Of a stretch of DNA of 64,000 nt, positions 6,152 to 63,703 are shown in pieces. The notes below the pieces were generated by a model. It did not search any database, was not told the origin of the DNA, and was given only the letters and a program-made list of their open reading frames with translations. How positions within the stretch are numbered: position 1 is the first letter of the stretch; every line of letters begins with the position of its first letter. Location of the stretch: NCBI GenBank assembly GCA_035527515.1, contig DATLAJ010000042.1, positions 1 through 64,000 of the forward strand, read 5' to 3'. A program made the translations under genes and the position numbers. This DNA comes from a bacterium (lineage in GTDB: Bacteria > B130-G9).

Positions 6152-8290
6152 TCAGAAGTTCACCTCGTCCTTCAGCACCTCGCGCGGCTTGCTCCCCCTG
6201 AACGGTCCCACTATGCCCTGCTGCTCCATCATATCAATGTAGCGGGCGGCACGGCTGTGGCCAATCTTGAGCTTGCGCTGCAATAGCGAGATCGAGGCGT
6301 ACTTGGAGCGGATAACTATCTCCACTGCCGTCCTGTAATGTGGATCGTCCGTGCCCTCAAAATCGATCGGCTCCTCCAGCTGGACCTCGTCGAAGATGCT
6401 GCTCTCACGCACCGGCGCAGGCTGGCTCTTGAGGTACCTGACGATCCTCTCGATCTCGCGCTCAGAGATGAACGCCCCGTGCAGACGGATGAGGCCCGGC
6501 GCGCCCGGCGTCAAGAAAAGCATGTCCCCCTTGCCAAGAAGGGTCTCGGCCCCGTTCTGGTCAAGAATGATCCTTGAATCGACCTTCTGAGCAACCCTAA
6601 AGGCCAGCCTCGAGGGGAAGTTGGTCTTGATAAGACCCGTAACAACATCAACGGATGGACGCTGCGTGGCAAGCACCAGATGGATGCCAGCAGCGCGCGC
6701 CTTGGCAGCGAGCTTGACTATCGGGACCTCTATTGCCTGCCTCGCCGAGAGCATCAGGTCTGCAAGCTCGTCAACAACTATAACGAGATAGGGCATGGTC
6801 TTAAGCTCCGGCGGCATATCCTCTGGCTTGACCCCGGCAAGCTCTCTGGCTCGGACCTTGCGCTCCCGCAAGACGCGCTCGTTGAATTCATCCACGTGGC
6901 GGACCTTCCGCTCGGCGAGAAGCTGGTATCTCTTGTCCATCTCGCTAACCGCCCATCTAAACGCCAATTCCGCGTCCTGCACGTCGCTGATAACAGGCTC
7001 CCTGAGATGCGGTATCTTATTATATGGCGATAGCTCCAGCACCTTCGGGTCGATGAGAATCAGCTCCAGCTCCTCGGGCGTGGTGCAGTAAAGAAGACTG
7101 CACAGCATCGAGTTGATGCAGACCGACTTTCCCGTGCCGGTTGCGCCAGCAATCAAGATGTGTGTGATCTCGTTTAGCGAGATGACCTGCGGCTGGCCTG
7201 CGATGTCGGTCCCGATCGCGAGCTTGAGCTTTACAGGGTTCTTGGCGAATTGGTCTGAAGACAGGACCTCGCGAAACGTTATGATTCTGCGATTATCATT
7301 AGCGACCTCAACTCCTACAACTGACCGACCCGGAATCGGCGCTATACGAGGCACAAACCTCGCCTTCATGGCAAGGGCGAGATCGTCCGCTAGTGAAACT
7401 ATCCTGCTGAGCTTCACTCCCCGGGCGGGACGGAACTCGAACCTCGTGATGATCGGCCCCGTCAAGATGCCAGCGATCTTACCGTCGATCCGGTGATCGG
7501 CGAGCTTCTCAACTATCTGTTCCCCCTTTCTGATAAGACCATTCCGCCGCTCAGGATTGTCAATTATTCCGGTCGGGTCCAGAAGGTCCATACCCGGGAA
7601 CTGATAGCTCCCGCCCCCAGACTCCCGGACGGGCAGCGCCGCTCGCTTCGGGCCCCTCCTTCTCGGTTTCTTTGTGGTTTGCTGGGATGGTGCAGCCGAG
7701 GCTGACTCTGACGAGACCTCGGGCTCCCTTGCAGTTTCTGCACCAAACAGCTGAAGAAGCAGCCCGAGAACACGGCTGAGGCCGACGCCGACAACTAGCA
7801 TCGCCGACACGACAAGAAGCCCTGCTGTGATGATCATCGCCCAGAATGCGCTGAAAGAATCAACTAGTAACTTGGCAAGCTGCCAACCGAAAAAAGCACC
7901 CTCTATCGTGACAGGCCACTTGATGAGAGCGAAAATCGCTCCGAGAGAGACTGCGAAAACGAACGAGGCAGCGACCTTCAGCCAAAGGCGCCGCGGCCTT
8001 CTCCGAATCAACGTGGCGAAAGCCAAGACAAGTAATGCGACCAATAGCGGATAGGACGGAATGACTCCGAACAACAGGGCGAACGCGCCGTATATCCACC
8101 TCCCGACAGTCCCCACCGGATTGGAGGCAGAATCGCCGCCCCAGATGCTGACAATAGACAGCGCTGCGATGAGCACCACAACCACGCTGACAGCGTCCCT
8201 GAAAGCCCGCTGATGGAACAGCTGATAAACTGTTACAGCCCTAGCTTCCCCAACGCTGCGGTTGGTTGCTGACTTCTTCGTCCTGGCCAC
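6152..8290 (-). CDS. ftsK: DNA translocase FtsK/SpoIIIE
   Basis: FtsK pumps chromosomal DNA through the closing septum. The 712-residue protein has hydrophobic membrane segments at about 33-50, 66-95, 103-125 and 140-182, then a short basic linker near 200-220. The motor follows: Walker A AGATGTGKS at 381-389 and Walker B VIVVDE at 503-508, with the ATQRPSVDVVTG segment near 541. A C-terminal winged-helix gamma domain (about 652-706; SRAARYIDMMEQQGIVGP) would read the polar FtsK-orienting sequences. The linker is short compared with the enterobacterial protein, as in the SpoIIIE-like forms. The start codon is GTG at 8290 with GAGG seven bases upstream. The nitrilase gene is 19 bases upstream on the same strand. 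Confidence 0.96.
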   Translation of the reverse strand: MARTKKSATNRSVGEARAVTVYQLFHQRAFRDAVSVVVVLIAALSIVSIWGGDSASNPVGTVGRWIYGAFALLFGVIPSYPLLVALLVLAFATLIRRRPRRLWLKVAASFVFAVSLGAIFALIKWPVTIEGAFFGWQLAKLLVDSFSAFWAMIITAGLLVVSAMLVVGVGLSRVLGLLLQLFGAETAREPEVSSESASAAPSQQTTKKPRRRGPKRAALPVRESGGGSYQFPGMDLLDPTGIIDNPERRNGLIRKGEQIVEKLADHRIDGKIAGILTGPIITRFEFRPARGVKLSRIVSLADDLALAMKARFVPRIAPIPGRSVVGVEVANDNRRIITFREVLSSDQFAKNPVKLKLAIGTDIAGQPQVISLNEITHILIAGATGTGKSVCINSMLCSLLYCTTPEELELILIDPKVLELSPYNKIPHLREPVISDVQDAELAFRWAVSEMDKRYQLLAERKVRHVDEFNERVLRERKVRARELAGVKPEDMPPELKTMPYLVIVVDELADLMLSARQAIEVPIVKLAAKARAAGIHLVLATQRPSVDVVTGLIKTNFPSRLAFRVAQKVDSRIILDQNGAETLLGKGDMLFLTPGAPGLIRLHGAFISEREIERIVRYLKSQPAPVRESSIFDEVQLEEPIDFEGTDDPHYRTAVEIVIRSKYASISLLQRKLKIGHSRAARYIDMMEQQGIVGPFRGSKPREVLKDEVNF

Positions 8291-8309
8291 GTCTCGCCCT
8301 CAACAAATG

Positions 8310-9110
8310 TTATCTTCTTAGCAGCCGGCCGTAGAGCTCAACACGCCTGTCGGACACAAGATCGTTCCTGCTCGTCAGGCTCTTCTCGCAAGACATCCTG
8401 GGCTCGATATCGACTACGCCGGCTTCCTCCCCGTCAATTGCCGCCCTTGCCAGCACGTTCCCAAGTGGATCGACGATCAGGCTCCCACCGGTGAAGGTAA
8501 CTTCACGTCCAGAAACCGTCTCAGTCCCGACGCGGTTCGCCGTAATAGCAAAAACGCGATTCTCCAGGCATCTTGTCACCATCGCTCCCTGACAATACGG
8601 CAAGACGAGGTTCGCCGGATGGCAGATTATCTGCGCCCCCTTGAGCATGAGAACCCTCGCCGTCTCGGGGAAATACCAGTCGAAACAGATCATCATCCCA
8701 ACCTTGACCCCAGAAACCTCGAAGACCTCCGGCGCCCGATCGCCTGGCAAGAACACGTCCTTCTCGTAGCCAAAGAGATGGAGCTTGCGGTAGCGAAATA
8801 CCTCGCCGTCAGGTGTTGCTAGGACCGATGAGTTAAAAAGCTTGTCGCCGTCGCCCTCCGCAAGTCCGCCGACGATCGCGACGTGGTGTTCGGACGCTAT
8901 CTGAAGCAAGGCCTGAGTGGTCGGGCCGGAGGGTATTCTCTCAGCGAGCTTCTGCGCCTCAGCCGCGCTCGAGAAGAGGTAGCCCGTGTTGAAAAGCTCA
9001 GGAAGGACAAGCAGGTCGCACTGAAGCCGGCTGACTGCGCCGTGCACCTTCTCTATATTGCTGCTCTTTGCCCCACGTTCGGGACAGAACTGAAAGAACC
9101 CGACCCTCAT
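8310..9110 (-). CDS. Carbon-nitrogen hydrolase (nitrilase superfamily)
   Basis: A 266-residue cytoplasmic amidohydrolase. The catalytic triad of the nitrilase superfamily is readable: Glu38 in VLPELF, Lys109 in YRKLHLFG and Cys142 in MICFDWYFPE, with a second glutamate at 149. It has the normal length of single-domain omega-amidase or N-carbamoyl-putrescine-amidase-like proteins, but the sequence does not show which amide it cleaves. A repair role such as omega-amidase on 2-oxo acid amides is possible and unproven. The ATG at 9110 has AGGA seven bases upstream. It is only 19 bases from ftsK and probably shares its transcript. The 275 bases upstream of it hold no gene I can support. Confidence 0.88.
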   Translation of the reverse strand: MRVGFFQFCPERGAKSSNIEKVHGAVSRLQCDLLVLPELFNTGYLFSSAAEAQKLAERIPSGPTTQALLQIASEHHVAIVGGLAEGDGDKLFNSSVLATPDGEVFRYRKLHLFGYEKDVFLPGDRAPEVFEVSGVKVGMMICFDWYFPETARVLMLKGAQIICHPANLVLPYCQGAMVTRCLENRVFAITANRVGTETVSGREVTFTGGSLIVDPLGNVLARAAIDGEEAGVVDIEPRMSCEKSLTSRNDLVSDRRVELYGRLLRR

Positions 9111-9385
9111 TTACGCTTCCTGTTCGTTGCGGCAAGCTACTCGCAACAGACTCGCCAGATGAGATTAAACTTTTTGCGTCAGATACCAACATCATCGCAG
9201 CTGAGCCGCCAGAAAAGCAAGGTATCGTCGGCGCGGTGCTCGCCGCATCGCGTCTGGCACGTGGCTATGAAATGGGATGAGCCCGTCTTCGTGCTTTCGA
9301 TTACATCATCAAGAGTCGCGGCAAGCGGCACGCCTACAAAGGCCAGTCACAAACCTGTTGGTCAGCCCTCCATGGCGCGAATGCA

Positions 9386-10978
9386 CTAGCTCTTACCTGG
9401 CCTGGCAGAATAGGCAGCGTAGGAATCTATGGACGACGCCTCGACCTGGGCACCCAATTCACCGTTGCCTGGCACCGGTTGCTGGTCCCGCATCATGAGC
9501 CTACCCTCAACAAGCGCCCAGTCGCTAACCATCAAGTCGTTGAAGCTAGCAGCAAGACCGTTGCGACTGATGACCGTGCTGCGCGTGACCGATACGACGA
9601 CTCTGCCCTGCAGTAGTAGGGGCATCGGCCCCCACGAGTTCGTCCCTGACAAGACGATGGTGCTGTTGTCGTAGTTGATCCGGTCGATTGCGCCCTCGAA
9701 ATAGACCCAATCGGTATCACCAAGAGAGAAGTCAACGCTGTGCGCTACAAAGTAGTCATCTCCATCAACGGCGCGGTGCCAGCTTCCAGAAGCCACTGCG
9801 AAGTCGTCCACCCGCACGTCCTCAAACTCGATCGACATCCCCCTCCGGGTTAGACGCGCCTCGTCTGTCAATCGCACAAGCACTCGCTCGAATGGGCGTT
9901 CCGCCTCGTAAATCATCTCGGACAGCCAAAAGGACCGCTCTTCTGGGATTATCTCGTCAACGCTGCCAGACACGAACGACGGTGTTGAGGAATCCGTAAC
10001 CTCGATCCGGTCCGCGACGATTCCCGCACAACGCTCCTCGTATCCCAGCTCCGAGGCCCAGCCGTCCACGTAAACGTAGTTGCCGAGCATCACGTCTGCG
10101 AGCGAGATAGCCGCTCCGTCCTTAGCTATGACGGTGTCATCTGTTACGTAAACCATCCAGCATCCCCAGAAACCAGGATCATCGGTATCTTGCCCCCAGA
10201 CAAGGCTTTCCACCCGCAGCACACCTTCATCAACATCCACAGAAGTCACTGCCCCCTGGCAGGCCATTGCTGGCCCGTGCCGGCTATCCTTATCAAATGT
10301 GAACCAATCTGCCCAATCGCCATCCCCATCCTCAAACGTGGCCTGCACTCGCCATCTATACTCGCCGTCCGGCAGCTGAGCAGCAAGCTCCGGGTTGACC
10401 ACGAGTGACGTGATGAAAAACGGCAGGACGACAGAGACGGTCGCATCGCCCGGAAACGCTATCTCGAAGTTGTACCCCATCGCCTCGGGGACGGCGCCCC
10501 ACTCGAACGGTATCGGCATGCCCCGGTAGATAGCCGCGCCATCGGGCGGGCTTAGGAGGCCAGGTACCCGGGGATCATGGTCAGTGATGCTCAGAATAAA
10601 TGGCGCAGGCACGCTTATCTGACCGCTGGAGCTGATTGCGACAGCAAAGAGCTCGTAATCTCCCGGAAGCACTATCCCGGGCAAGTTAGGGACTGTCCAA
10701 TCACCCTCCAAGGTAGTGTAGCTTTCGGTGGTATCGGTCTCGGCAAGCTCTAGAATCAGGACGAACTGATACATGATCCAAACGGCGACCTCACCACCGG
10801 TTTCAGGACTCGCAACGTTGGCCCAGAACGTCACGGTATCGCCATAGGTTGCCAACGGCGGTGTTACACCGCAGTCCAACACCTGCGGAGCTTGCTGCGC
10901 GCTGGCCAGCAGTCCGAGCCCTAAAAGCATCGCCAAAAGCAGCAAAGCGGTTCGGGCACTTCTGAATGTCTTGGCCAT
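9386..10978 (-). CDS. Secreted protein with DUF5666-like repeats
   Basis: A 530-residue exported protein. It begins with a signal peptide (basic MAKTFRSAR, then LLLLAMLLGLGLLASAQQ). Residues about 25-125 and 125-240 look like beta-sandwich (Ig/Fn3-like) domains, the second with the WRVQATFEDGDGDW pattern of Fn3. The rest holds three DUF5666-like units, recognisable by V.LTDE.....RRG....F.D..V.D and close variants (VYVTDDTVIAKDG, VRLTDEARLTRRG, VSVTRSTVISRNG). The open frame continues nine codons upstream, but the ATG at 10978 has GGAGG eight bases before it and gives a clean signal peptide. The function is unknown; it lacks the shared C-terminal domain of the other secreted proteins nearby. 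Confidence 0.78.
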   Translation of the reverse strand: MAKTFRSARTALLLLAMLLGLGLLASAQQAPQVLDCGVTPPLATYGDTVTFWANVASPETGGEVAVWIMYQFVLILELAETDTTESYTTLEGDWTVPNLPGIVLPGDYELFAVAISSSGQISVPAPFILSITDHDPRVPGLLSPPDGAAIYRGMPIPFEWGAVPEAMGYNFEIAFPGDATVSVVLPFFITSLVVNPELAAQLPDGEYRWRVQATFEDGDGDWADWFTFDKDSRHGPAMACQGAVTSVDVDEGVLRVESLVWGQDTDDPGFWGCWMVYVTDDTVIAKDGAAISLADVMLGNYVYVDGWASELGYEERCAGIVADRIEVTDSSTPSFVSGSVDEIIPEERSFWLSEMIYEAERPFERVLVRLTDEARLTRRGMSIEFEDVRVDDFAVASGSWHRAVDGDDYFVAHSVDFSLGDTDWVYFEGAIDRINYDNSTIVLSGTNSWGPMPLLLQGRVVVSVTRSTVISRNGLAASFNDLMVSDWALVEGRLMMRDQQPVPGNGELGAQVEASSIDSYAAYSARPGKS

Positions 10979-11095
10979 GTCCTTTTCCTCCATTGCACCT
11001 AACATTTAAGCAAAACACTTGTCTAAAGTGTGCCTTCAAAGCATTTTACCCAATCCGCCTGGTGAATGTCAACCCATCTTTGATAGGAGTTTTCG

Positions 11096-11155
11096 CATTC
11101 TATCTTGGGGTGCTTCTGGGCGCCGTTTTTGTTTCAGCGTGCTTGACAGCAGCTA
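11096..11155. repeat. Dispersed repeat, copy related to 45885-45945
   Basis: About 60 bases here can be aligned by eye with 45885-45945. Both start CATTCT, share TCTTGG and TTCTGGGCGCCG, then a TTTCAGC/TTTCGC stretch and a GCTTG. No coding frame accounts for the similarity. It lies directly before the multi-hairpin element. Confidence 0.5.
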
Positions 11156-11159
11156 TGAA

Positions 11160-11310
11160 TCCCCCCATCCCCGCAAGGGGATCAACGTAAATAGCCGTGG
11201 GTGCAACCCACGGATCAGGGTCAGAGGAGGAAAGGAAAACAGCCCTGAAAGGGCTGAACATCGCCCTCTGGACGGGCTGTTCGACCCCTCGGGGTCGCTC
11301 TGATTTTTTG
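11160..11310. repeat. Multi-hairpin intergenic repeat (copy 1)
   Basis: Four short inverted repeats follow one another: ATCCCCGCAAGGGGAT, CCGTGGGTGCAACCCACGG, CAGCCCTGAAAGGGCTG and GACCCCTCGGGGTC. Related elements with the same GTAGCC.C..GTGCAACC core lie near 14.5 kb and 36.0 kb. The 506-base gap between the DUF5666-like gene and the small secreted protein otherwise holds only the repeat at 11096 and the likely leader of the next gene. Confidence 0.65.
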
Positions 11311-11484
11311 GGCAATTTTGGCGTTGACATATTTGTGGCGGCGTGAGAGGATAACTCCAAAGGCGTATTGTATATCAGTTTCAGGTTGGTGAATCCGCCT
11401 GAACCGGTGGTCCGGATTGCGAGATTCGGGCTAATCTTGTGCTGAATCATCCGGCGAGGGCGCAAAGAAGGGAGGCGATATCTG

Positions 11485-51845: not shown

Positions 51846-52610
51846 TTAGTCAATTGACCCCTCTTCCTGTTGGTAGCGATCCATGTCATGCTCGCTCACG
51901 TTGTAACCGCCATAGGGATCTATCCTATCCGTCTGCATAAGGGCATCCAGAAGGTCCTGGCTAAGCCACCCGAAATCATCAAGTAACCTGATCGAGTTGA
52001 AGATCCAGCCTGAATCGACATGATGTAGAGCTATGAATTCGAGTGTCTCTTTGCATCTCTGGGAGTTCATATTTCGATAAATGCCGAAAAGAGTCAGCCA
52101 TTCCTCAAAAGGGAGACGCTCCATTGCAGTGATCAGATCCTCGTATTCTTCCGATGCGTGAAACATCCCTATAGCATCTCCCATCTCGGGATGAAAAGCC
52201 TCGTCCATAGGGAAGGCTTGCCGTATAAGCTCTCTCCAGTTCAATCTGGCCGCCTCATCCACGGGCAACTCGACCAGCTCGATGTTCATTCCTTCCACCC
52301 TCCGCGAAGCCGTCTCACTGAATCCGTGGGGAGTAATCAGTATTCCCTCCTGAGCACCCAGATCTCCGAGCATCCCAATGAAACTCTCCACATTTTTGAC
52401 ATTGAGCTTTCGGGAATACATCTTGCACTCGACCGCGATAAAAGGCCTTGAGACGTCTTCGGTGAGAAAGATGGCTACATCAAGCTGACGCTTAGCCCTT
52501 GTTATCATCCCTACGACTTCCCTGTAATCGGGGATGACTATGAAATGCGGTGGCCTGTAGGAATAATACAGCTCGTTGAAAGCTGCTTGCTCGTATTCCC
52601 TCCAATCCAT
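51846..52610 (-). CDS. PD-(D/E)XK nuclease-like protein, last gene of a five-gene defence operon
   Basis: A 254-residue protein. The N-terminal part is a restriction-endonuclease-like fold: Asp44 (RQLDVAIFL) and Glu61-Cys-Lys63 (IAVECKMYSRKL), the D...ExK active site, then VKNVESFIGMLGDLGAQEGILITPHGFSETA, as in Mrr and related nucleases. The rest is helical and I do not recognise it. I start at the ATG 52610 with GAGG five bases upstream; the open frame goes to 52637. It is 48 bases after the DUF262 gene. A role in cutting invading DNA is inferred. The 430-base gap on its other side (51416-51845) has no supported gene. Confidence 0.8.
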   Translation of the reverse strand: MDWREYEQAAFNELYYSYRPPHFIVIPDYREVVGMITRAKRQLDVAIFLTEDVSRPFIAVECKMYSRKLNVKNVESFIGMLGDLGAQEGILITPHGFSETASRRVEGMNIELVELPVDEAARLNWRELIRQAFPMDEAFHPEMGDAIGMFHASEEYEDLITAMERLPFEEWLTLFGIYRNMNSQRCKETLEFIALHHVDSGWIFNSIRLLDDFGWLSQDLLDALMQTDRIDPYGGYNVSEHDMDRYQQEEGSID

Positions 52611-52658
52611 ATACGCCTCAAATCCCTCCACTGACACATGCGCCCGTCAGTCGAGCCA

Positions 52659-54026
52659 TCAGTCGTTTCTTGATCTTGCCATATTGCAGTATCGGTGGGT
52701 CAGACGAGCCTTCTCCGGGATTGTCTTGCCACCTCTCCAATACTGATCTATGTGATCCACAGCAGCGTCGTCGATCTCCTCAATTCGTTGCTCGCATATC
52801 GCACAAGTAGGATCCGCTCTGTAAAGCTCCTCCTTCAGCTTGCGACTGAAACAACGCGGCTGTCTCGGTTGCTCCTTTAGTATCATCCTCACACGCTGGA
52901 ATCCGAGCTCGAATCGAGTCAGCACTCGCTCCCTATCGCTCGTGCCCAGAACGGTCGCATCAACGAATTCATCATTTGAGGAAATCAGGTCCAACAATCC
53001 CTCGCGCAGACAGTCCAATGCACCATAAACCTGGTTCTTGTCTTTGTCGCAGAATACGCCCATCAGCACATCGTAAAGCGAAGCGTTGAACTTCCGACCC
53101 TCCCAGCATCCACTCGGATTGGATTCATCTCCCCGATAGAGACGTTTGAAGGCCCTCTGGCCAAATAGAGACCTGTTGATCTGCACGGCGGTCTTAAATG
53201 CCCGCCTGAGCTCGTCCGCATCGGTACGAGATATATTCTGGAATTTCTCCATGTCCTGATTCAGGAAACGCCTCACCGGGCGCTGGTATTTCAGATAGGT
53301 GGCGTGATAAAACGCTGCGAAGCGCAATACCAGCTCAACATCCTTCATGCGCCTGTCGGGCTGCTTGATCCCCAGAAGTTGAATGAATTCTTTGTCCTCA
53401 GATAGCTCCTTCAGTAACGCCATATAGCGCCCACGATAGACGCAATTCCGAAGCTCCATGTCGTTCAGTGGCACCGCGCCCGTATTCAGCCGCTCGAAGA
53501 TCTCAAACTTGAGCTCCCTGTCACTATCCACCTTGATAGTTATCGCCCGGATCTCGTGATACCTGATCCTGTCCTGGACTTGTTCATCAAGCTCGTTGAA
53601 GTGCTTTCCATTGAGTTCTGTGAAGACTTGAAGGCCATTCAATTTGAATGGCTTAAACTCCCCTGTCTTTGTGGGAAATGCATTGTCGATGTAAGCGAAG
53701 AATGAGGTTAGCCTCTGCTGCCCGTCAATGACGGATTCCTTGCCGTCCTCTTCTTCAGCCAAATAAATCACCGGTAAGGGGACGGCAATAATGACCGACT
53801 CGATGAGGCGACTTGCCTTCTTCTCATCCCAGACGAATTGCCGTTGGAAGTCGGGCTGAAGAATCAGCTTGCCGCGCTTCCACTTGCTGTAGAGCGATTC
53901 TATCTCAGGATCAGATGATTTGGTGTTTATTCTTCGTTTGGTCTTGTCGAGAGTGAGCTCTTCCCTTTCGTCCTCTTCTGGCGTATCGAAGACTAACCCC
54001 TCTTCTGGCGTATCAGCTGCGTCCAT
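52659..54026 (-). CDS. DUF262 / HNH protein (GmrSD-like)
   Basis: A 455-residue protein. DUF262 at the N-terminal side: LQPDFQRQFVW, then VIDGQQRLTSFFAY (DGQQR at 101-105, a nucleotide/DNase active site in GmrS and relatives), and a FERLNTGAVPLND segment. The C-terminal end has an HNH/zinc-like part CAICEQRIEE...DHIDQYWRGG...RYC. This is the arrangement of GmrSD-type and related defence nucleases, but the protein is much shorter than full GmrSD and has no DUF1524. The ATG at 54026 has GGAGG six bases upstream; an adjacent ATG lies at 54029. Its start overlaps the stop of the DprA-like gene. Confidence 0.86.
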   Translation of the reverse strand: MDAADTPEEGLVFDTPEEDEREELTLDKTKRRINTKSSDPEIESLYSKWKRGKLILQPDFQRQFVWDEKKASRLIESVIIAVPLPVIYLAEEEDGKESVIDGQQRLTSFFAYIDNAFPTKTGEFKPFKLNGLQVFTELNGKHFNELDEQVQDRIRYHEIRAITIKVDSDRELKFEIFERLNTGAVPLNDMELRNCVYRGRYMALLKELSEDKEFIQLLGIKQPDRRMKDVELVLRFAAFYHATYLKYQRPVRRFLNQDMEKFQNISRTDADELRRAFKTAVQINRSLFGQRAFKRLYRGDESNPSGCWEGRKFNASLYDVLMGVFCDKDKNQVYGALDCLREGLLDLISSNDEFVDATVLGTSDRERVLTRFELGFQRVRMILKEQPRQPRCFSRKLKEELYRADPTCAICEQRIEEIDDAAVDHIDQYWRGGKTIPEKARLTHRYCNMARSRND

Positions 54027-54727
54027 CATAGTCCTCCATTTGGCATTATTGGTCGTAGGCCGGCCCCAGATTCTCCACATATCGAACCAAGGCTGCCTGA
54101 AGCAAGAGATATGAAACGTTCCTTTGTTCCATCCCTGCGCACAGAACGAGGACGGATTAGATTCTCGTTGTTCGGGTCGTCGAAAGTGTAGAGGGGCTTG
54201 TGCCAGCTGAGGAGCTCGCGAGCAAATGCCTCGGTCTTGCTGCCGGGGGCGGCGTAGGCGATCAGGATGCTCTCGGCGAGAGCGGCGACGAGGCGATTTC
54301 GGAACAGGGCGGTGGCGGCGGTTGGGCGGCGGACCTTCTCAGGCAAGGCCGATAGCAGCAGGAGACGCCCCTTGTTCACAGGTCCTCTATATTCCCGTCG
54401 GATGCGCATCTTCTCAATACCCCTGGCGGGACATAAGATCATGGAGCCCTCGCCTCGCAGCAAGACGTTCAGGACCTCTTTCTCAATAGGCGAGTGGAAG
54501 CCGCCGATGACCGTCGTGCCTTGCTCCCGCAGCTCTCGCGCCAAATCGTATATCTTCAAGATGATGCTGCCCGGGCATTTGGCCGAGCAGAAAATTGCCA
54601 GATTCTTATGACTCAGCAGCTCGACGTCGCCGATGGCTGTCAACCGCTCTGGCGCATCGTCCCCAAGATGCCGCAATAGCGATTTGGGGCACTCCGCCCG
54701 GCTCTGTGTCAAATAGGTCGTCTGCAT
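54026..54727 (-). CDS. Solitary DprA-like protein in defence operon
   Basis: A 233-residue protein of the DprA/SMF Rossmann type without the normal N-terminal helical and C-terminal winged-helix domains. SLLRHLGDDAPERLTAIGDVELL, NLAIFCSAKCPGSIILKIYDLARELREQGTTVIGGFHSPIEKEVLNVLLRG and LSALPEKVRRPTAATALFRNRLVAALAESILI follow the DprA core (IVGsR.., vVSGla.GID..., FP.RNRiia.l). The GID and NRxi equivalents are altered (GGFHSPIE; FRNRLVAAL), so its DNA-binding chemistry may differ. Its stop overlaps the DUF262 start and its own start is 22 bases after AbiEii, so it is in the same operon. Ordinary DprA is already encoded at 260-1363. Confidence 0.75.
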   Translation of the reverse strand: MQTTYLTQSRAECPKSLLRHLGDDAPERLTAIGDVELLSHKNLAIFCSAKCPGSIILKIYDLARELREQGTTVIGGFHSPIEKEVLNVLLRGEGSMILCPARGIEKMRIRREYRGPVNKGRLLLLSALPEKVRRPTAATALFRNRLVAALAESILIAYAAPGSKTEAFARELLSWHKPLYTFDDPNNENLIRPRSVRRDGTKERFISLASGSLGSICGESGAGLRPIMPNGGL

Positions 54728-54749: not shown

Positions 54750-55622
54750 TCAGCCCAAATCGGGGAGCAAGTCCTGTAGTAGCAGTCGCAAGTGGTCAAA
54801 GACCTCCTGGCAACCTGGCAGTTCACTCACAAATGGCCCCAGAGTCGCACCCCAATGCAGACGCGCCTCAGAGACCAGTTCATCGCTGAAAAAATCGCCC
54901 AAGCTCTCAAATGTGACACCACGATGGTTACATTTCTTGACCAAGAGAGGCATGATCTGCTCGCGCTGCAACCTGTCGCCGAACGCCTCCAGGATGCGCC
55001 ACAGATCGTAGTAGTCACGAGCCCGAGGGCGGTTCCAACCGCGCATCACTAGCCTCTGGTGGGTCTGAAGCAGCGTCCGCAACTTCTCAGCTACGATTTC
55101 CTCAAGACGATAACAGCACACGTCAAACGGCAGGCACTCTTTGTATCCGTGCATCAAACGGCGCCTTTCAGGATGGAGAAGGACCGGCTCGTCATGAGTG
55201 ATCTCTACTTTGATCCGGCAGAGCGGTTCAGGATGCCAGGGAAACCGCACACGAATTGTGAACGCCTCCTGCCCGTGTGGATGAGGATCGCGTTCGAGAT
55301 ACCGTTCGAGCTGTATCGAAAAAGGGCCTTGTTCTGACAGAAGCCGGTGTGCTTCCTCAGCTGCCTCACGCATGGCCACCTCAAGCTGCTCATCTTTCGG
55401 CGCATCTATTGCAGAGTAGTCGAGGTCCTCGGAGAAACGATAATCGCCGAAGAACACCTTCTTCAAGGCCGTTCCGCCCTTGAACACTAACGCATCGCCT
55501 AGTGCCGGATGTGAGGCGATACCGGCCAGGATGTAGCTGAGGGCATAATCCTTCTCAATGACCGGCTGCGGTATCCCCTGTCGTTTGGCGGCGTCCTGGA
55601 TGCGAAGCCGCAGGGGTCTCAT
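54750..55622 (-). CDS. abiEii: AbiEii-family nucleotidyltransferase (toxin)
   Basis: A 290-residue DUF1814 nucleotidyltransferase, the toxin of the AbiE phage-abortive system. Marks are FVFKGGTALKK-like KGGTALKK (48-55) and RFSEDLDYS (62-70, with Asp66 and Asp68 in the active site), KVEITHDEPV, EEIVAEKLRTLLQ and RARDYYDLW. The ATG at 55622 has GGAGG seven bases upstream and overlaps the AbiEi stop by four bases. The pair is followed, after 22 bases, by the DprA-like gene, which is not part of normal AbiE loci. Confidence 0.9.
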   Translation of the reverse strand: MRPLRLRIQDAAKRQGIPQPVIEKDYALSYILAGIASHPALGDALVFKGGTALKKVFFGDYRFSEDLDYSAIDAPKDEQLEVAMREAAEEAHRLLSEQGPFSIQLERYLERDPHPHGQEAFTIRVRFPWHPEPLCRIKVEITHDEPVLLHPERRRLMHGYKECLPFDVCCYRLEEIVAEKLRTLLQTHQRLVMRGWNRPRARDYYDLWRILEAFGDRLQREQIMPLLVKKCNHRGVTFESLGDFFSDELVSEARLHWGATLGPFVSELPGCQEVFDHLRLLLQDLLPDLG

Positions 55623-56470
55623 GGATTCGCCTCCGCCGCAAGGTTGTTCTGGATCATCCATCGCTTATCGCACGGTCCCCGGCGACTGCGGGTCGGATCC
55701 AAGGCGTGGTAGCCAGTGGCCGGAATCTCAAGAAGCGGCCTCAACTCTGCTTCAGAAACGCCAGCCCGCTCCAACGCCCAGCCGAGTCGCTTGGCGGTGG
55801 ATATCTGGCCAAAGCGGCGCGCGTATTCGACCAACTTGCCGACGTCCAGTCTCCCCAAATGGTTCTCGATTATCCCTAGCGCCTCGCCCATTCCGCCGAA
55901 GACTCTGCACGAGATGAACACCTCGAGCACGGTTCGCTCCCGGTCAGTGATCGGAACGCGGAAGTTCTCATCCACCCACACTTGCTCAATCCCAAAGAAA
56001 CGCTCCTGCCGGACGCTGACATACTCATACCGGACGCCCGCAACGTCCCAGGCGTGCCGTCGGCCCCGACTGCTTTTGCCGCCGCGCATGCTTGGCGTCA
56101 CGACCTTCTTCGGTGTGAAAGCGGTTACCACGCGAGGCGCCTGTTCCGTCAGGCCGTGGTGGCTGAGCGCAGACCAGTGGCTAATCGCCGACGGTATCAC
56201 TAACTGCGTGGCAATAGCGAAGGGGTGAATCTGAACCTGCCCGGACGCGAGTCCGGATACTGCATAGAGCCCACGACGCAGCCTTATCAGCCAGCCGTCC
56301 CTAATCATGTTCAGCAGAAGGTTTCTCACGTAGTCTTCAGGAACGCCAACGCCCGCCGCAAGCTCTCTCGCCTCGGAAGTCGTAAAGACGACCCGCCCAG
56401 CCTCAGAAAGCGCCTTGAGAAGCCGGATCACGTGCATCCCACGGCTTCTAGTCTCCGGGTTCTGGACCAT
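55619..56470 (-). CDS. abiEi: AbiEi-family antitoxin (winged-helix regulator)
   Basis: A 283-residue antitoxin. The N-terminal winged-helix (SEARELAAGVGVPEDYVRNLLLNMIRDGWLIRLRRGLYAV) is the AbiEi_3/4 type, and the C-terminal domain (ISHWSALSHHGLTEQAPRVVTAFTP, DRERTVLEVFISCRVFGGMGEAL) is the AbiEi antitoxin domain. It neutralises AbiEii and normally represses its own promoter through inverted repeats, which would lie in 56471-56700; I could not fix them by eye. The first gene of the five-gene operon. Confidence 0.88.
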   Translation of the reverse strand: MVQNPETRSRGMHVIRLLKALSEAGRVVFTTSEARELAAGVGVPEDYVRNLLLNMIRDGWLIRLRRGLYAVSGLASGQVQIHPFAIATQLVIPSAISHWSALSHHGLTEQAPRVVTAFTPKKVVTPSMRGGKSSRGRRHAWDVAGVRYEYVSVRQERFFGIEQVWVDENFRVPITDRERTVLEVFISCRVFGGMGEALGIIENHLGRLDVGKLVEYARRFGQISTAKRLGWALERAGVSEAELRPLLEIPATGYHALDPTRSRRGPCDKRWMIQNNLAAEANP

Positions 56471-56670: not shown

Positions 56671-57115
56671 AAAGGATGAAGGCGGAAGGATGAAGGATGA
56701 ATCATCCATTGGAGGCCTTCCGCGATCTCATTCGCTCTTTTACATTCTTGACACATGTCGTCAGTATGGCAGTCAGCTCGTTCGCCTCATCCATCAGCTC
56801 CTTCATGCGCTCGCCCTTCACAATGCTTCCCTCAACAAGGAGCTCCATCCAATACGCCGACTCATCAAGTTCCTGAAGGGCACCTTCGATCTTGCTGACA
56901 AACTCGGCATTAGAACGCGCCCGGCTCGCCTCTCGATAATGAGCCCCGACTGATGTGCCGGACCTCAACAACTGCTTGCCTATGACCTGCGCCTCAGTCG
57001 TCTTCGGCAGCGACGAATAGAGACGTATCACACGCAGCGCAAACCTCTTCGTCCGGCTCCTCAGATCCTCAAGCTTCCCCCCTTCATCCTTCATCCTTCA
57101 TCCTTCATCCTTCCG
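56671..57115. mobile_element. Putative small mobile unit: four-helix-bundle gene between inverted GGATGAA ends
   Basis: The left end (56671-56722; AAAGGATGAAGGCGGAAGG, then GGATGAATCATCC) and the right end (57081-57115; repeated TTCATCC and CCTTCCGGGC) are in inverted orientation and are the same sequences as the gene-free elements at 20.1, 23.1 and 24.4 kb. The gene between them starts and stops within these ends. Confidence 0.5.
56702..57094 (-). CDS. Four-helix-bundle (S23/IVS-type) protein
   Basis: A 130-residue all-helical protein of the 23S-rRNA-intervening-sequence / four-helix-bundle family. The family pattern is readable: SRTKRFALRVIRLYSSLPK, GKQLLRSGTSVGAHYREASRA, AEFVSKIEGALQELDESAYWMELL and LMDEANELTAILTTCVK. 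Its role is not known; relatives also occur freely in genomes. The first codons (MKDEGG) and the last ones lie in the GGATGAA repeats, so the gene seems to be carried by the repeat-bounded unit. It lies between the two defence modules. Confidence 0.86.
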   Translation of the reverse strand: MKDEGGKLEDLRSRTKRFALRVIRLYSSLPKTTEAQVIGKQLLRSGTSVGAHYREASRARSNAEFVSKIEGALQELDESAYWMELLVEGSIVKGERMKELMDEANELTAILTTCVKNVKERMRSRKASNG

Positions 57116-60100
57116 GGCGGGCTCGCCGCCCGCCCCCCAGCCCATCCGATACTTGATGTCGTAGTTGATTATGAAGTCCAACTCCTCATCCGTGAAACCA
57201 TAGTGCCTCGCTAACACGCGATCGATCTCGTCGATGATCGGCTTAGACAATCGATGGTAATACTCATATTCCGTCTGCTTCGTTCCCACATGCCTTCTGT
57301 TCCTCGTCAGGTCGCTCATTAGAGCTTCGGTGAGCTCATCGAGCCGGCCTCGCGTTGATGCCGTCAGCAAACCGGGGTCAAAAAGGAAATTAACCATTTC
57401 CTTTTGAGTGATGTGCCACCCGTCACTCACCAGCTCCCAGAACCAGAAGTAGAGAGATGAATTGAAAACGGCAACGAGAACCTTTTTGAGAGAAGAGTCC
57501 GCCGCACCGAAATGCTTGTACTCCCTCGAATCTTGTGTTATGTCAAAGGCCTTGCCCCAATACATCATCCGCATGTTCAGAGAAAAGACTTCGTCCCCTG
57601 TGATGCAGTCCGTTATTGGTTTGAGCTGGCGCTGTATCTTCTCAAAAACAGACACCTCGATTCCATCGCCCGACTTGGCCCAACAGTAGGAGAGGGGATG
57701 CGGGTCCACATAGGCGAGATTATGCATAAGGTCTTCCTGTGCACGCTCTGACCTCCCATACCAGTGCTGATACGCCGTCGTATGAAGGACCCCACCAGAT
57801 TGATCCTGCCCGCTTGTTGCCAATATGATCGAGAGCTTCTGATGCACCCCGGTGAACAAAGAGCCGGGCCTGTCGGCGTAGTTGCTGCACCAAGTGCACC
57901 GGTCGTGTGAGCTGAATAGTTCTCTCAACGGCAGCATTCGAGGTGTACTGGCCAGCGAGATCGGGAGGATTATGCCCAAGTTGCCGTGCCGCTGCCTACC
58001 CAGTTCAGAAGAGCGCTCGGCCATAAATACGTACAGATTGCCACACTTCTCCGTCTGATAGCCCTTGATCGTGTATTCATTCTTGACCTTGCTGTATTCC
58101 ACATAGGGTGGATTGCCAATGATGACGTCGAAGCCGGCCCTATTCATGATCTCGTGGAACTCGATGAACCAGTGGAACGGCTTGTGCGAGTCGCGCCACA
58201 GTTCATAGGCGGTCTGATCAGAGACTCGGACGCCGTATTGGTCCGCCAAATAGGTGTTCAGCTCGCCTTCTAGCTTCTTGAGCAAGTCGGTGACCTCTTG
58301 CTTGTCCTTGAGGGTTACGGTTCCCCCCTTGTCGGTCTGCTGAAGCCGGAAGAGCTGAAGGATCTCACCTATCTCAGTCGCGTCGCGTTCAATCCTCTCC
58401 ATGACGTTGCCAAAGTCGAGCTGGCTCTTCACCGCGCGCTCTACGTCCTCGTATTTGGCGAAGCCTACGAGCGAGTTCCCGGCGCGGATGTTGAAGTCGA
58501 TGTCGGGGAGCGGCTCGATGTCCTCAGGATTTTCCACTTGGGAGACGAGCTTCAGGAAGAGGCGCAGCTTACATATCTCGACTGCCTCGTCCATGATATC
58601 GACGCCGTAGAGGTTGTTCAGGACTATGGACTTGAAGATGAAGTACTTCTCATTCGGATGCTTTCCAATGCGCGCAAGCACCTTCCTGAAGTCGCTGTAT
58701 TTCTCAGGGCTGTGCTTCTCACCCGACGCGTCGAGCTCATCCACGAAGGCCCGCATCCTGTTCAGGCACGCCTCGTAAAGACATTCGAGGATGTTGAGCG
58801 CCGCGAAGAGAAATGCCCCCGAGCCGCAGGCGGGGTCAAGGACGCTCACGCCATTGATCGCCTTCCAGAATGCCCTCAAGAGCTCCGGCCCCTCACAGCT
58901 GTCAACGACGTCTTCGGCGAACTGCTCGATGTTTAGGTTAAGCGTAATAAGGTCGTTGATCTCTCTGACCTCACCGTTTCTGAGCTTTGCCCTGACCTCC
59001 TCACACCTTTGCCGCCTCGCCACGGTCTCGCGCCATATCTCTGTCGGCAGCTTGTATTCCTCGTCCGCCGCCTTGTTCCAATACGTGCGTTTCGAGACGT
59101 CGTCAACGCCCATGGCGATGCGCTCGGGCAACGGTAGATCGACGCCCTTGAGCATCGCGTTGTAGATGTATCGGTCGGGGTCGTCCTTAAGCAGCCGCCA
59201 GACGGAGCTGTCACCCTCGAACGCTATCTTGCAGTCCTTTTTGGCTGCGTCGAAGAGGAACGGGATGACCGTGTTGCGGCTGATGTAGCCGGTGATGTCC
59301 TCCTTGGTATAGTAGGCGCCCATCTGCTTCTGGTTGATGTATTTCTCATAGACGTAGCCCAGGATATCCGGGTTGATCTCCTTGTCATTGCGCAGGGGTC
59401 GCTCGTCGAGGTGCCACCGCCACTCATCGAAGAACCCAAAGAGCTTCTCAAACGCGGCGTCGGCAATCTCAATCTCCCTGCCGTGTTTCTCCTCGATCTC
59501 GTGTCGCATAAAGAGGCCGCCGTTCAGGAACGGGACCTTGCCCAGCATTTCTCTCGCCTCGGGTGAGCGGTCTTGCTCGCGCTTGGCGAATCCCTCGAAG
59601 AAGAGCGGACAGAGGAAGTCCCGGTAGTAGCGGTCCTTGCCTCGTCGCTTGCTCTCTTTGAGCTTGGTCACGAGGTAATTACGGTCATCGTCAAGAAAGC
59701 CCTTGCTTTGGATGAAGTAGATGAACATGAGACGGTTGAGCATGACGGAAACGTACCAGCGCTGCATGTCATTCGTAGGGATACCGTCAAGGAATGAGTG
59801 GAACTCGTCACGTTTTCTCTTGAACCCATCGTAGAACCGCCTCGTGACGGGCTTTGTGTCAAATGCTGCGCGAACGCGACCCGAGGAGTCGACAATTGTG
59901 AGACCATCTTCCTCCTCGATTGCGAACGTGATGGCCTGGAGCTTTTGAATGAGAGGCTCTCCTGATTGGCCGAGATAGAAACGATGCTCCCGGGACGCGG
60001 CCGGCTTGCCCGCCTCGCGTTTCACCCACTGCCAGACCTGAACGGTCTTCTCAGCATCGGTATAGATAATGAAATGCTCGTGGTAGAGTTTTCTTATTCT

Positions 60101-60337
60101 GTTGTCGATCTTGCGCCTGATCGCATACTCTGGTATTACGCCACCCGATGAAGGCGAGCAGACGAAGGCGACCATGCCGCGCTTCTCGGCGATGCTCCTG
60201 AGATTGCATGTCTCGCCATCTACGGTGAGACTGAACTCCTTTGTGTAATGGTCCCAGCCGAGCTCGTCAATGAAGAGGCTCTTGAAAGCGAAATCCCTGA
60301 GATATCCCCTTACACGGTCTCGGTCGAGGCGCCTCAT
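57098..60337 (-). CDS. Eco57I/PglX-like DNA methylase, paired with PLD-helicase
   Basis: A 1079-residue protein. The first ~170 residues (LFIDELGWDH; AEKRGMVAFVC; VQVWQWVKREAGKP) form an N-terminal domain common in large Eco57I-class proteins. YTKEDITGYISRNTVIPFLF at about 343 leads into the methylase: AdoMet motif DPACGSGAF (501-509), LNNLYGVDIMDEAVEI, and the catalytic NPPY (742-745). The C-terminal third is the target-recognition part, ending in GFTDEELDFIINYDIKYRMG. N6-adenine methylation is expected. No clear separate nuclease motif is seen, so the partner may cut. Its ATG touches the stop codon of the helicase gene. Confidence 0.87.
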   Translation of the reverse strand: MRRLDRDRVRGYLRDFAFKSLFIDELGWDHYTKEFSLTVDGETCNLRSIAEKRGMVAFVCSPSSGGVIPEYAIRRKIDNRIRKLYHEHFIIYTDAEKTVQVWQWVKREAGKPAASREHRFYLGQSGEPLIQKLQAITFAIEEEDGLTIVDSSGRVRAAFDTKPVTRRFYDGFKRKRDEFHSFLDGIPTNDMQRWYVSVMLNRLMFIYFIQSKGFLDDDRNYLVTKLKESKRRGKDRYYRDFLCPLFFEGFAKREQDRSPEAREMLGKVPFLNGGLFMRHEIEEKHGREIEIADAAFEKLFGFFDEWRWHLDERPLRNDKEINPDILGYVYEKYINQKQMGAYYTKEDITGYISRNTVIPFLFDAAKKDCKIAFEGDSSVWRLLKDDPDRYIYNAMLKGVDLPLPERIAMGVDDVSKRTYWNKAADEEYKLPTEIWRETVARRQRCEEVRAKLRNGEVREINDLITLNLNIEQFAEDVVDSCEGPELLRAFWKAINGVSVLDPACGSGAFLFAALNILECLYEACLNRMRAFVDELDASGEKHSPEKYSDFRKVLARIGKHPNEKYFIFKSIVLNNLYGVDIMDEAVEICKLRLFLKLVSQVENPEDIEPLPDIDFNIRAGNSLVGFAKYEDVERAVKSQLDFGNVMERIERDATEIGEILQLFRLQQTDKGGTVTLKDKQEVTDLLKKLEGELNTYLADQYGVRVSDQTAYELWRDSHKPFHWFIEFHEIMNRAGFDVIIGNPPYVEYSKVKNEYTIKGYQTEKCGNLYVFMAERSSELGRQRHGNLGIILPISLASTPRMLPLRELFSSHDRCTWCSNYADRPGSLFTGVHQKLSIILATSGQDQSGGVLHTTAYQHWYGRSERAQEDLMHNLAYVDPHPLSYCWAKSGDGIEVSVFEKIQRQLKPITDCITGDEVFSLNMRMMYWGKAFDITQDSREYKHFGAADSSLKKVLVAVFNSSLYFWFWELVSDGWHITQKEMVNFLFDPGLLTASTRGRLDELTEALMSDLTRNRRHVGTKQTEYEYYHRLSKPIIDEIDRVLARHYGFTDEELDFIINYDIKYRMGWGAGGEPARKDEG

Positions 60338-63300
60338 CTATTTCCCCTTCTCCTCAGCAACCAGCCCCATCGAGCATATTATCTCCGGCTCACCGGTGAC
60401 CTGTTCCTTTTCCACCTGGCAGAGACGGCCGTCCTTGCGCCGGTCAATTACGAGCTCCGCCAGCTTCATGTCTGATATCCCGGAGCGCAGCTGCCTGTTG
60501 AGAGCGTCCGTGGCCGAAGGACGCAGAGGGAATTGATAGATGTCATAAAGCGCCTTCTCGAGCTTCGCCGAGTCAACATAGACGGCGTCCTTGGTATCTT
60601 CGATGTACCGCTTCAATCGCTCGTAGGTCTTGAACCGTGCGCCTGACGGTTTTCCAAGCTGGCCACCGACCGATTTCTCCTCTTCGATAATGTGTTCCAC
60701 TGCCCGCTTGACGAGACGATGATGGTCCGCGCGCCTCGGGAGAGCCGGGGTATCGGGATCGCATTTGACTGCTCTCAGGATCTCGGACTGAGATTCTGAT
60801 ATGATCTCGCCTCTCTTGTCCACCCACGCAAGAGCATCATCTTTGTTGCCTGTCCGGACATAGACCAACGCGCCGTCCTTGCCTCCATGCATAGGGGCCG
60901 TTTCCCGCGTCGAAAACACAACGTTCGGCATTGTCTTGATGGTCTTCTCGAGCTTCGGGTCCTTCTCGATGGCGTTTTTCCATATCCCGTATGCGCGGGA
61001 GGCGAGATCGACCTCGGAATCTGGGTCATCGTCCAAGAGTCCAGCCTTTTCGTTGTAGAGGTCAACGATAGCCTGGCTGTCCTCGTCGTCCTCGAAGAAG
61101 GCCTCGTCCGTGCCAACCACCTCTGCGTTCTCGCGCAGGCGCTGCCGTACCCTCGCCCTGAGGTGTATGATCTGCTCTACGCCGTCCGCTGGCATGAATG
61201 AATAACAGAGGATCTCGTTCGATTTCTGGCCTATCCGATCAACACGCCCGGCGCGTTGGACGAGGCGCACGATTGCCCAGGGGAGGTCGTAGTTGACGAC
61301 GATGTAGCCGTCTTGAAGGTTCTGACCCTCGCTGAGAACGTCCGTCGCCACAAGCACGCGAAGCTGGTTGTCGGGCGGGAACCGGCCCTCCTTTTCATTA
61401 CTGATTGGGCTGAACCGCCACGCAACTCTGGTCGGATTATCAGAATTCCCTGTCACTCCCGCCAGGCTTTCCATACCACGGCGCTTGAGTTGAGCCTCTA
61501 GATAGCGAACGGTGTCGGCGAATTGTGTGAAGACGATCACCTTGTCGTCCGTGTGCTTGCGCCTCAGGAGGTTCTCAAGCGCAGCCAGCTTGGTGTCCCT
61601 GCTCGGATCCCAGTCGCCGCATTCATACAGAACCTCGATAAGCCTCTGAGCGTCAGTCAGAAGATCGTCATGCAAGGCACGCTTAAAGAATTCGATCGGG
61701 AGCCATTTGAATTTCGATTTCAGTCTATCGAGGAAAGTGGAATAGACCTGCGCCGCACGTTCCCTGAATTGCTCCTCAGTCCTAAGCCCGGACGTCGCCA
61801 AAGCCGCGTTTCTCTGAACATCTTCCTCATCCTCATCGGCTATCCGAGCATCCAGAAGGGCTGCATCCTGCGGGCCTATCGGAAGAGCCTCGCCGTTCTC
61901 GATTGCGTGAATGAAGACGAAGTTGCGCAGTGTGTGGCGCTCAATCGACTCTATGAATACCTGACCGCTGCTCTCCAACCGCTTGAAGAGATTGGTTCGG
62001 CAGAATCCCATGAGCTGCTTACCCGCGCGGGACAGATCATCCAGCACCTTCTGTTCTCCCGGTGTCGTCTCCATCTCAAGTGACTCCCGGACGTAGTTCC
62101 CGAGGCCATATCTCGGCAGGTTCAACGCCCTTATCTTGTCGGCGACGGGGTCCGAGAAGAGCTTGGCATACTGATCGCTGGGGTCGTCGTCCTTTATCTC
62201 GAACTTCACCGTCTTCGGTATGCGCTCAGGGAAATAACATGGCCTCCCATCCGCGAATGTCAGGAAGGGCCGTCCCGAGTCAGGGTCCTTCTTGGCGTAG
62301 TTATCCTGAATGAACGTACGTGTGCGTCTGACTAAGTAAAGCCGCATCAGGTCCCGCCAATCGTCCATATACGGGCTCTTCTCGAATGCAGCAAGAGTGC
62401 GAATAGGGCATTGGTATTTTCGGACGAATTCAACATCGCCTATCTCACGCAGAAGTCTCTCTGGACGGATACCGACGTCGAAAGTCTCGGGCACAAACAG
62501 GCGCAGCTGGTTTGACAGGTCGAGGTATGTTTTGTTGTAAGGCGTCGCGGAGAGCAGGATGCACCTGCTTTCGTTTCTGTCAATATACTGCTGGATCGCC
62601 CTGTAGCGCTTCCCCTCGCGGTTCCTTAGGTTGTGGCTCTCGTCAATGATGACGACCCTGAAGCGCTTGATGTTGGGCAATTCATCGATGACCTTTCCCA
62701 GAGAGACTATCTCATAACCACGCATGCGATAGCGCGTAGCGTGGTCCTTCCACATCGGGATGAGATTAGGCGGGCAAATTATCAGCGTTTCTAAGTTATG
62801 GGGCTCCTCCTCAAATATCCGGGCCAACGCGGTCGCCATGAGCGTCTTGCCGAGCCCGACGACGTCACCGATGATCACTCCTCCACGCTTGTTAAGGTGG
62901 CGAGCCGCAATCTTGACCGCCGCCTCCTGAAACTCAAAGAGCACCCCCTGAAACTCCGGCGGTAGGAAGAATTCAGTCAAACCTGCACGTGCCTCCTGGG
63001 AGAGGTGATATGCCATCTTGATGTAGATGTGATACGGCGGGATCAGGTCTTCACGGGCCCAACTCAGCTCGATGATCTCAAGAAGCTCTCTCGAGATATC
63101 GAGGCACCACTGGTCGTTCCACCGATCTTCGAACCACCTCGCGAGCTTTTCGCAGGCGTCGTGGTCGAGAACGTCGATATTAAGCTCGCCCTGCATGGCA
63201 AGGCCGGCAAACGTCAGATTCGAACTCCCAAGATAGCCAACTGTCGGGGCATCGGGATCGGGTCTAAACAGAAGATAGAGCTTCGCGTGGAGCGGGTGCC

Positions 63301-63703
63301 TGAGGTAGAGCTTGACAACGACCTTCTTGGCCCTGATCTGGGCCGCGAGCTTCTGTAGCCCAACCTCGTCCTCGTCTGAGGGTAATCCGGCCTCCAGCTG
63401 CTCCTTGAACTGCTTAGCGAGCTCCCTCTTCAGCTTCAAAGCTGTCTGGTTGTCTATCCTGTCACCGCTCCTTGCCAGACCTATGGCAAGTCTCAGTTCC
63501 TCGTCCGGAAGCCGCTGCATGCCTACAAGGAGCCGACAACAGTTGCCATCACCGCCTTTCCACTTCTCTATGAATGAATGGAGCCGCTTCCAACCGCGCA
63601 GGTTGAAATAGCCAACACAGAAGTCAGCCCGTTCGGACTTCTCAAGTGTTTCTCGTAAGGCGGGAAGTAACGTTCTGTCAATGTTGTCAAATATACGCGG
63701 CAT
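60338..63703 (-). CDS. PLD-nuclease / SNF2-like helicase fusion
   Basis: A 1121-residue protein. Residues about 1-200 are a phospholipase-D-like nuclease domain with His139-x-Lys141 (LHAKLYLLF) and Asn162 (GSSNLT). A superfamily-2 SNF2-type helicase follows: GDVVGLGKT (280-287), PPNLIPMW, DESH (354-357), SATPYN (385-390), and in the second lobe VIVFTQFADTVRYLEAQL, VLVATDVLSEGQNLQ and QRAGRVDRIGQ. Translocation on DNA would feed the PLD site. The start at 63703 is the internal ATG of the longer TTG-led frame, with GGATGGAG just before. The methylase gene follows without a gap. I know of no named system with just these two genes. Confidence 0.87.
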   Translation of the reverse strand: MPRIFDNIDRTLLPALRETLEKSERADFCVGYFNLRGWKRLHSFIEKWKGGDGNCCRLLVGMQRLPDEELRLAIGLARSGDRIDNQTALKLKRELAKQFKEQLEAGLPSDEDEVGLQKLAAQIRAKKVVVKLYLRHPLHAKLYLLFRPDPDAPTVGYLGSSNLTFAGLAMQGELNIDVLDHDACEKLARWFEDRWNDQWCLDISRELLEIIELSWAREDLIPPYHIYIKMAYHLSQEARAGLTEFFLPPEFQGVLFEFQEAAVKIAARHLNKRGGVIIGDVVGLGKTLMATALARIFEEEPHNLETLIICPPNLIPMWKDHATRYRMRGYEIVSLGKVIDELPNIKRFRVVIIDESHNLRNREGKRYRAIQQYIDRNESRCILLSATPYNKTYLDLSNQLRLFVPETFDVGIRPERLLREIGDVEFVRKYQCPIRTLAAFEKSPYMDDWRDLMRLYLVRRTRTFIQDNYAKKDPDSGRPFLTFADGRPCYFPERIPKTVKFEIKDDDPSDQYAKLFSDPVADKIRALNLPRYGLGNYVRESLEMETTPGEQKVLDDLSRAGKQLMGFCRTNLFKRLESSGQVFIESIERHTLRNFVFIHAIENGEALPIGPQDAALLDARIADEDEEDVQRNAALATSGLRTEEQFRERAAQVYSTFLDRLKSKFKWLPIEFFKRALHDDLLTDAQRLIEVLYECGDWDPSRDTKLAALENLLRRKHTDDKVIVFTQFADTVRYLEAQLKRRGMESLAGVTGNSDNPTRVAWRFSPISNEKEGRFPPDNQLRVLVATDVLSEGQNLQDGYIVVNYDLPWAIVRLVQRAGRVDRIGQKSNEILCYSFMPADGVEQIIHLRARVRQRLRENAEVVGTDEAFFEDDEDSQAIVDLYNEKAGLLDDDPDSEVDLASRAYGIWKNAIEKDPKLEKTIKTMPNVVFSTRETAPMHGGKDGALVYVRTGNKDDALAWVDKRGEIISESQSEILRAVKCDPDTPALPRRADHHRLVKRAVEHIIEEEKSVGGQLGKPSGARFKTYERLKRYIEDTKDAVYVDSAKLEKALYDIYQFPLRPSATDALNRQLRSGISDMKLAELVIDRRKDGRLCQVEKEQVTGEPEIICSMGLVAEEKGK

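Follow-up and report, generated by a model that had tools for sequence, protein, structure and literature searches.

Can two adjoining genes, one for a helicase with a phospholipase D-like (PLD) nuclease motif and one for an adenine methyltransferase, make up a complete restriction-modification (RM) system, or do they belong to something larger? The question is raised by a gene pair on the minus strand of contig DATLAJ010000042.1 (assembly GCA_035527515.1; GTDB lineage Bacteria; B130-G9), of which positions 1 to 64,000, here called the window, were analyzed. The pair is probably a two-gene, ATP-dependent RM system that works in a Type III-like mode, with a modification (Mod) and a restriction (Res) subunit, but built from non-homologous parts. 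Both open reading frames are intact and lie as the original prediction described; the features central to the argument are:

60338..63703, minus strand: PLD-SNF2 helicase of 1121 amino acids (aa) from its ATG; proposed restriction motor and presumed nuclease.
57098..60337, minus strand: Eco57I/type IIG-like N6-adenine methyltransferase of 1079 aa; presumed modification and specificity subunit.
59948..60337, minus strand: N-terminal domain of the methylase (aa ~1-130), with an alpha-beta-beta-beta-alpha-beta-beta fold; presumed docking domain for the helicase.
57338..57967, minus strand: hypervariable region of the methylase (aa ~791-1000); presumed target-recognition domain, with a cassette swap between near-identical loci elsewhere.

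The helicase contains a single PLD motif (H139-A-K141 ... G159-S-S-N162; PLDc_2 match of 28.6 bits, cutoff 27) and a complete set of SNF2 motifs (Walker A GLGKT, DESH, SATP and the motif VI QRAGRVDRIG), together with matches to SNF2-rel_dom and Helicase_C. A TTG located 12 bases upstream of its ATG is also open as an alternative start, and its stop codon is directly followed by the methylase ATG (60338/60337). Motifs, domain matches and this junction bear out the earlier description of one protein uniting a PLD nuclease with an entire SNF2 helicase and abutting a methylase. Profile matches relate the helicase distantly to DrmD and BrxHI/HII, with 195 bits against the PADLOC "HKD+Snf2" model and 141 bits against the NCBI model of DrmD (cutoff 610). 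The methylase has the motif order I -> IV, with DPACGSGAF at 501 and NPPY at ~742, and matches the Eco57I family (PF07669, E=6.7e-24); a PDB sequence search with it gave no match. It had been called PglX/Eco57I-like, and the Eco57I half of that description stands. The PglX half gives way to the PADLOC REase_MTase_IIG model PDLC03628, which covers the protein at full length (1052 bits). PglX models score far below their cutoff, and the relationship to PglX, as to DrmMI, is distant. In a family comparison the PLD motif was kept in 30/30 pairs and NPPY/F/W was present in every methylase scored among them, a conservation that is not due to chance.

The association of the two genes is near-obligate. 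Relatives were gathered by the methylase from a genome collection and, independently, by the helicase, from plasmids, viral contigs and genomes of five phyla; the helicase-led sampling was added because the methylase-led loci had been chosen by the methylase itself, and in that first scan the helicase adjoined in 9/9 loci. Among 44 helicase loci scoring >1000 bits, 41 have an adjacent methylase on the same strand (36 directly downstream, 5 upstream), and in the remaining three the contig ends no more than 1.4 kb away; one of these three genomes has the methylase at the end of a different contig. Restricted to loci found by helicase alone, the count is 30/33. The pair singled out by the original prediction thus recurs in many phyla. 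Four helicases that are only ~31% identical (L086, L087, L088 and L102) have no adjacent methylase, which indicates that the family has a boundary. At E<=1e-80, helicase-positive genomes numbered 4/399, 6/347, 10/297, 5/14 and 12/246 in the five phyla, some of these matches being fragments or more distant relatives; no other copy was present among four genomes searched from the window's own phylum, and none was found in phage records. Two decayed loci mildly favor a dependence of the helicase on the methylase. The Dolichospermum locus has a truncated methylase and a PLD motif without its lysine, and the Microbacterium locus combines an intact helicase with a methylase that breaks off near insertion sequences; at such loci a cutter able to work on its own should be lethal.

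Sequence comparison places target specificity in the methylase subunit. Islands of Pseudaminobacter and Rhizobium (L009 and L011) align at 95.8% identity along 11 kb and at 90.3% along another 3.8 kb, yet a segment of ~1.8 kb between conserved flanks, containing the target-recognition end of the methylase, has been replaced. Their helicases are 99% identical and their recognition regions 20%, which means that one and the same helicase serves different specificities. The same gradient is seen between Synechocystis 6803 and 7338, whose helicases (97%) and methylase N-domains (80%) are far closer than the regions that follow the N-domain (43-51%) or the recognition region itself (13%).

Which mark such a methylase makes can be approached through plasmid pSYSX of Synechocystis PCC 6803, which encodes a methylase with ~47% identity to that of the window over its full length and the same PLD-SNF2 helicase upstream. 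The PADLOC type IIG model matches this protein from end to end (2662 bits over 1100/1100 positions), from which we infer that the model was built from it. Two methylases, M.Ssp6803IV and M.Ssp6803V, are located on pSYSX (PMC6604393); M.Ssp6803V is a Type I enzyme, and GAm6AGGC is the motif of M.Ssp6803IV (PMC7296061). The pSYSX annotation holds two methylase systems only, the PLD-SNF2-linked one and a Type I system, and by elimination the homologue is very probably M.Ssp6803IV, making GAm6AGGC. Because GAAGGC is asymmetric, only one of the strands would be methylated, which is also the case for Type III, ISP and type IIG systems. The gene is one that we take to be slr6050; slr6095 was considered for the same role and rejected, as it belongs to the Type I system.

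The N-terminal domain of the methylase was predicted by AlphaFold2 as a small, confident fold (pLDDT 88) whose order of helices and strands equals that of restriction-endonuclease-like folds. The acidic/lysine triad of PD-(D/E)xK nucleases is not conserved in it among 31 aligned sequences, in which F22, W28, W102 and F159 are invariant, and the domain scan of the methylase brought up no further nuclease domain. In one phylum the N-domain occurs in 8/246 genomes, all eight being among the 12 that are helicase-positive (Fisher p = 1.7e-12), and actinobacterial methylases that are otherwise only ~22% identical retain it. Since it lacks the PD-(D/E)xK residues and is found only in genomes that encode the helicase, the domain is probably a docking platform for the helicase. 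Spearman correlations between the helicase and methylase sub-regions are no higher for this domain (0.62) than for the region after it (0.65), so that co-evolution alone is no proof of docking. The domain also occurs on a viral-collection contig (L034, 13145-14335), fused to sigma-70 regions 2 and 4 and adjoined by a DprA-like gene.

Whether the pair needs further genes was asked of its relatives, as the assembly contig stops at 64801 and only 1.1 kb is visible past the helicase. A 17.7-kb plasmid of Rhodococcus ruber consists essentially of the pair and of replication and maintenance genes, and no DISARM or BREX genes occur in the stretch read of a 20.6-kb Anabaena plasmid. Ten large neighbors, a part of all neighbors, were scanned against PADLOC and contained no components of DISARM, BREX or Dpd. 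DrmA and DrmB (DUF1998) are absent from the window contig and were not recognized in the part of the relatives' flanking genes that was scanned; PglZ and BrxC were not recognized in the scanned neighbors of relatives or in plasmid annotations, nor was YprA beside the pair in the same kinds of material. DUF499 and DUF3780 were found neither in plasmid annotations nor in the ten large neighbors, the Pfam scan covering part of the neighbors. The pair, compact and widely scattered, appears to be self-sufficient. Its description as an isolated unit holds insofar as no DISARM or BREX genes were recognized across 44 relative loci, but it needs qualification, because the pair is often accompanied, by a DprA-like gene in 14/52 loci and by toxin-antitoxin genes in some. 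The companions concerned are:

54750..56470, minus strand (window): AbiEi/AbiEii type IV toxin-antitoxin pair between the methylase and the DprA-like gene; accessory or passenger.
54026..54727, minus strand (window): short DprA/SMF-like protein (PF02481); recurrent third gene downstream.
L014 8353-8986, L016 7359-7992 and L036 11484-12114: VapBC-like pair between helicase and methylase on three cyanobacterial plasmids.

The DprA-like gene, wherever present, lies downstream on the same strand, within ~3.4 kb of the methylase and at times overlapping its stop codon; the count of 14 includes the window, and some sampled contigs end too early to show it. An AbiEii gene also stands beside a distant helicase in Thermococcus. 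Immediately after the window methylase (56702-57094) lies a four-helix-bundle protein of TIGR02436 (23S rRNA intervening sequence family). Further downstream on the same strand (51846-54727) the DprA-like gene is joined by a GmrSD_N/HNH protein, which matches the PADLOC NsnA model at 310 bits, and by an Mrr-type nuclease; the region looks like a defense island. In two relatives (L006, 12519-14389; L007, 7256-8766) a YhcG/DUF1016 PD-(D/E)xK nuclease immediately precedes the DprA-like gene, and in another (L097, 15394-17394) the pair is followed by DUF6884 and a queuine tRNA-ribosyltransferase-like protein, possibly DpdA-like.

Among known systems, Type III enzymes share the two-gene organization, with a methylase/specificity gene and a helicase-nuclease gene, and, probably, the methylation of asymmetric sites on one strand only. 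The pair is Type III-like by architecture; the class of its methylase and the kind of its nuclease set it apart from that type, since Type III Mod is of the beta class and Res carries a PD-(D/E)xK nuclease, whereas here the motif order is I -> IV, the helicase is SNF2-like with an N-terminal PLD motif, and the domain scan found no Res endonuclease domain. Type IIG enzymes resemble the methylase in their Eco57I-type N6-adenine chemistry and C-terminal target-recognition region, as the PDLC03628 match and the cassette swap illustrate, and differ in that the window protein appears to lack conserved nuclease residues in the same polypeptide. Precedent for a PLD nuclease working with a superfamily 2 (SF2) ATPase comes from CglI/NgoAVII and SauUSI, which restrict DNA with ATP. 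CglI/NgoAVII combine both with a methylase in ATP-dependent cleavage (PMC4267653); their R protein joins the PLD nuclease to a B3 domain for recognition, and both the ATPase and the 5-methylcytosine methylase are separate, whereas in the window one protein unites PLD and ATPase, no B3 match is seen and the methylase is of the N6-adenine type. SauUSI has the same PLD-SF2 order as the window helicase (PMC7913695). The closest published relative by gene content is the Type-2 BREX-related (BR) system, in which an N-terminal HKD nuclease is fused to a Swi2/Snf2 helicase and accompanied by an N6-adenine methylase (PMC12839542); it adds a DUF499 ATPase, DUF3780 and a DUF1156-type methylase, none of them recognized in the neighbors and annotations scanned here. 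DISARM class 1 (DrmD and DrmMI) offers distant homologues of both proteins, and its DrmA, DrmB and DrmC are absent here; pairs of an SNF2 helicase and a PglX-like methylase also form part of ARMADA (PMC12458937). Ssp6803IV of PCC 6803, with homologous methylase and helicase, differs by the VapBC-like pair between the genes, and its catalog entry (type IIG) ignores the helicase. The two-gene unit is not described in the literature found, whose coverage is incomplete. As to whether the pair had already been named, its halves are known separately, as "type IIG" and "HKD+Snf2" in PADLOC, and the pair is not.

The best-supported mechanism is that methylation protects and the helicase-nuclease cuts. 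The Eco57I-type methylase would recognize an asymmetric site via its C-terminal target-recognition domain and add N6-methyladenine; at unmodified sites it would instead provide target recognition to the PLD-SNF2 protein. The latter would dock on the presumably dead N-terminal domain of the methylase and translocate along DNA with ATP. Cleavage might then occur when the PLD domains of two protomers meet and form one active site. Several points weigh against this scheme. Restriction activity, phage protection, complex formation, docking, translocation and two-site cleavage are all inferred; the AlphaFold2 model of the helicase (pLDDT 57) is too poor for its C-terminal domains or any DNA-binding part of its own; and the dead-nuclease interpretation of the N-domain derives from topology, a Foldseek search having returned nothing significant (best E 0.04, weak SPARDA matches). 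The assignment of slr6050 to M.Ssp6803IV is by elimination, and the L096 helicase (7965-11351), with its PLD motif intact, is not accompanied by a methylase in the 1.4 kb that remain before the contig ends.

Other readings explain parts of the evidence. The methylase could be a self-sufficient type IIG enzyme with its own nuclease, and the helicase an independent neighbor or enhancer. The full-length PDLC03628 match speaks for this, although that model is apparently the Synechocystis homologue itself; the missing PD-(D/E)xK residues, the lack of any other nuclease domain in the methylase, the near-obligate helicase and the confinement of the N-domain to helicase-encoding genomes make it improbable. 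It is unlikely, too, that the pair acts in a BREX- or DISARM-like manner, with methylation marking self and the helicase-nuclease blocking phage replication or using host proteins rather than performing simple site-linked cleavage: the distant kinship with DrmD, BrxHI/HII, DrmMI and PglX and the pairs known from ARMADA and related systems agree with such a mode, but DrmA/B, YprA, PglZ, BrxC, DUF499 and DUF3780 were not recognized in the scanned neighbors and plasmid annotations, and the helicase has an intact nuclease motif of its own. A Type IV role, in which the PLD-SNF2 protein would depend on modification and stand beside an unrelated methylase, as its SauUSI-like domain order (PMC7913695) might suggest, is very improbable: such a nuclease would need to ignore the mark of an active neighboring methylase, chance neighbors would not occur together so regularly, and target-recognition domains are swapped in the methylase with the helicase unchanged.

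A larger functional unit, in which the DprA-like protein and toxin-antitoxin modules serve as guards, would account for the recurrence of these companions, for the VapBC-like pair between the genes in cyanobacteria, for AbiE in the window and for one phylum sample in which the DprA-like gene occurs in 7/8 close-helicase genomes against 16/297 overall (p = 2e-9). Such a unit seems improbable as well, given that nine genomes of that sample carry the gene without the helicase and that most loci lack it, the minimal Rhodococcus plasmid included, with some sampled contigs too short downstream. Returning to the two-gene RM system, we speculate, tentatively, that it may represent a distinct modular RM type, in which the N-domain, a dead nuclease-like plug, would link exchangeable modules for methylation and target recognition to a single conserved PLD-SNF2 cutter, with a DprA-like protein and toxin-antitoxin pairs as frequent guards.

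If the two-gene reading is correct, a group catalogued as stand-alone type IIG would turn out to be one of the two subunits of an ATP-dependent system, which occurs in a model cyanobacterium and, across four large phyla, in ~1-5% of the genomes sampled, and defense callers would need a new rule for the pair. Because the gene count is minimal, specificities have been swapped in nature and a Synechocystis strain is available, the mechanism can be tested directly.

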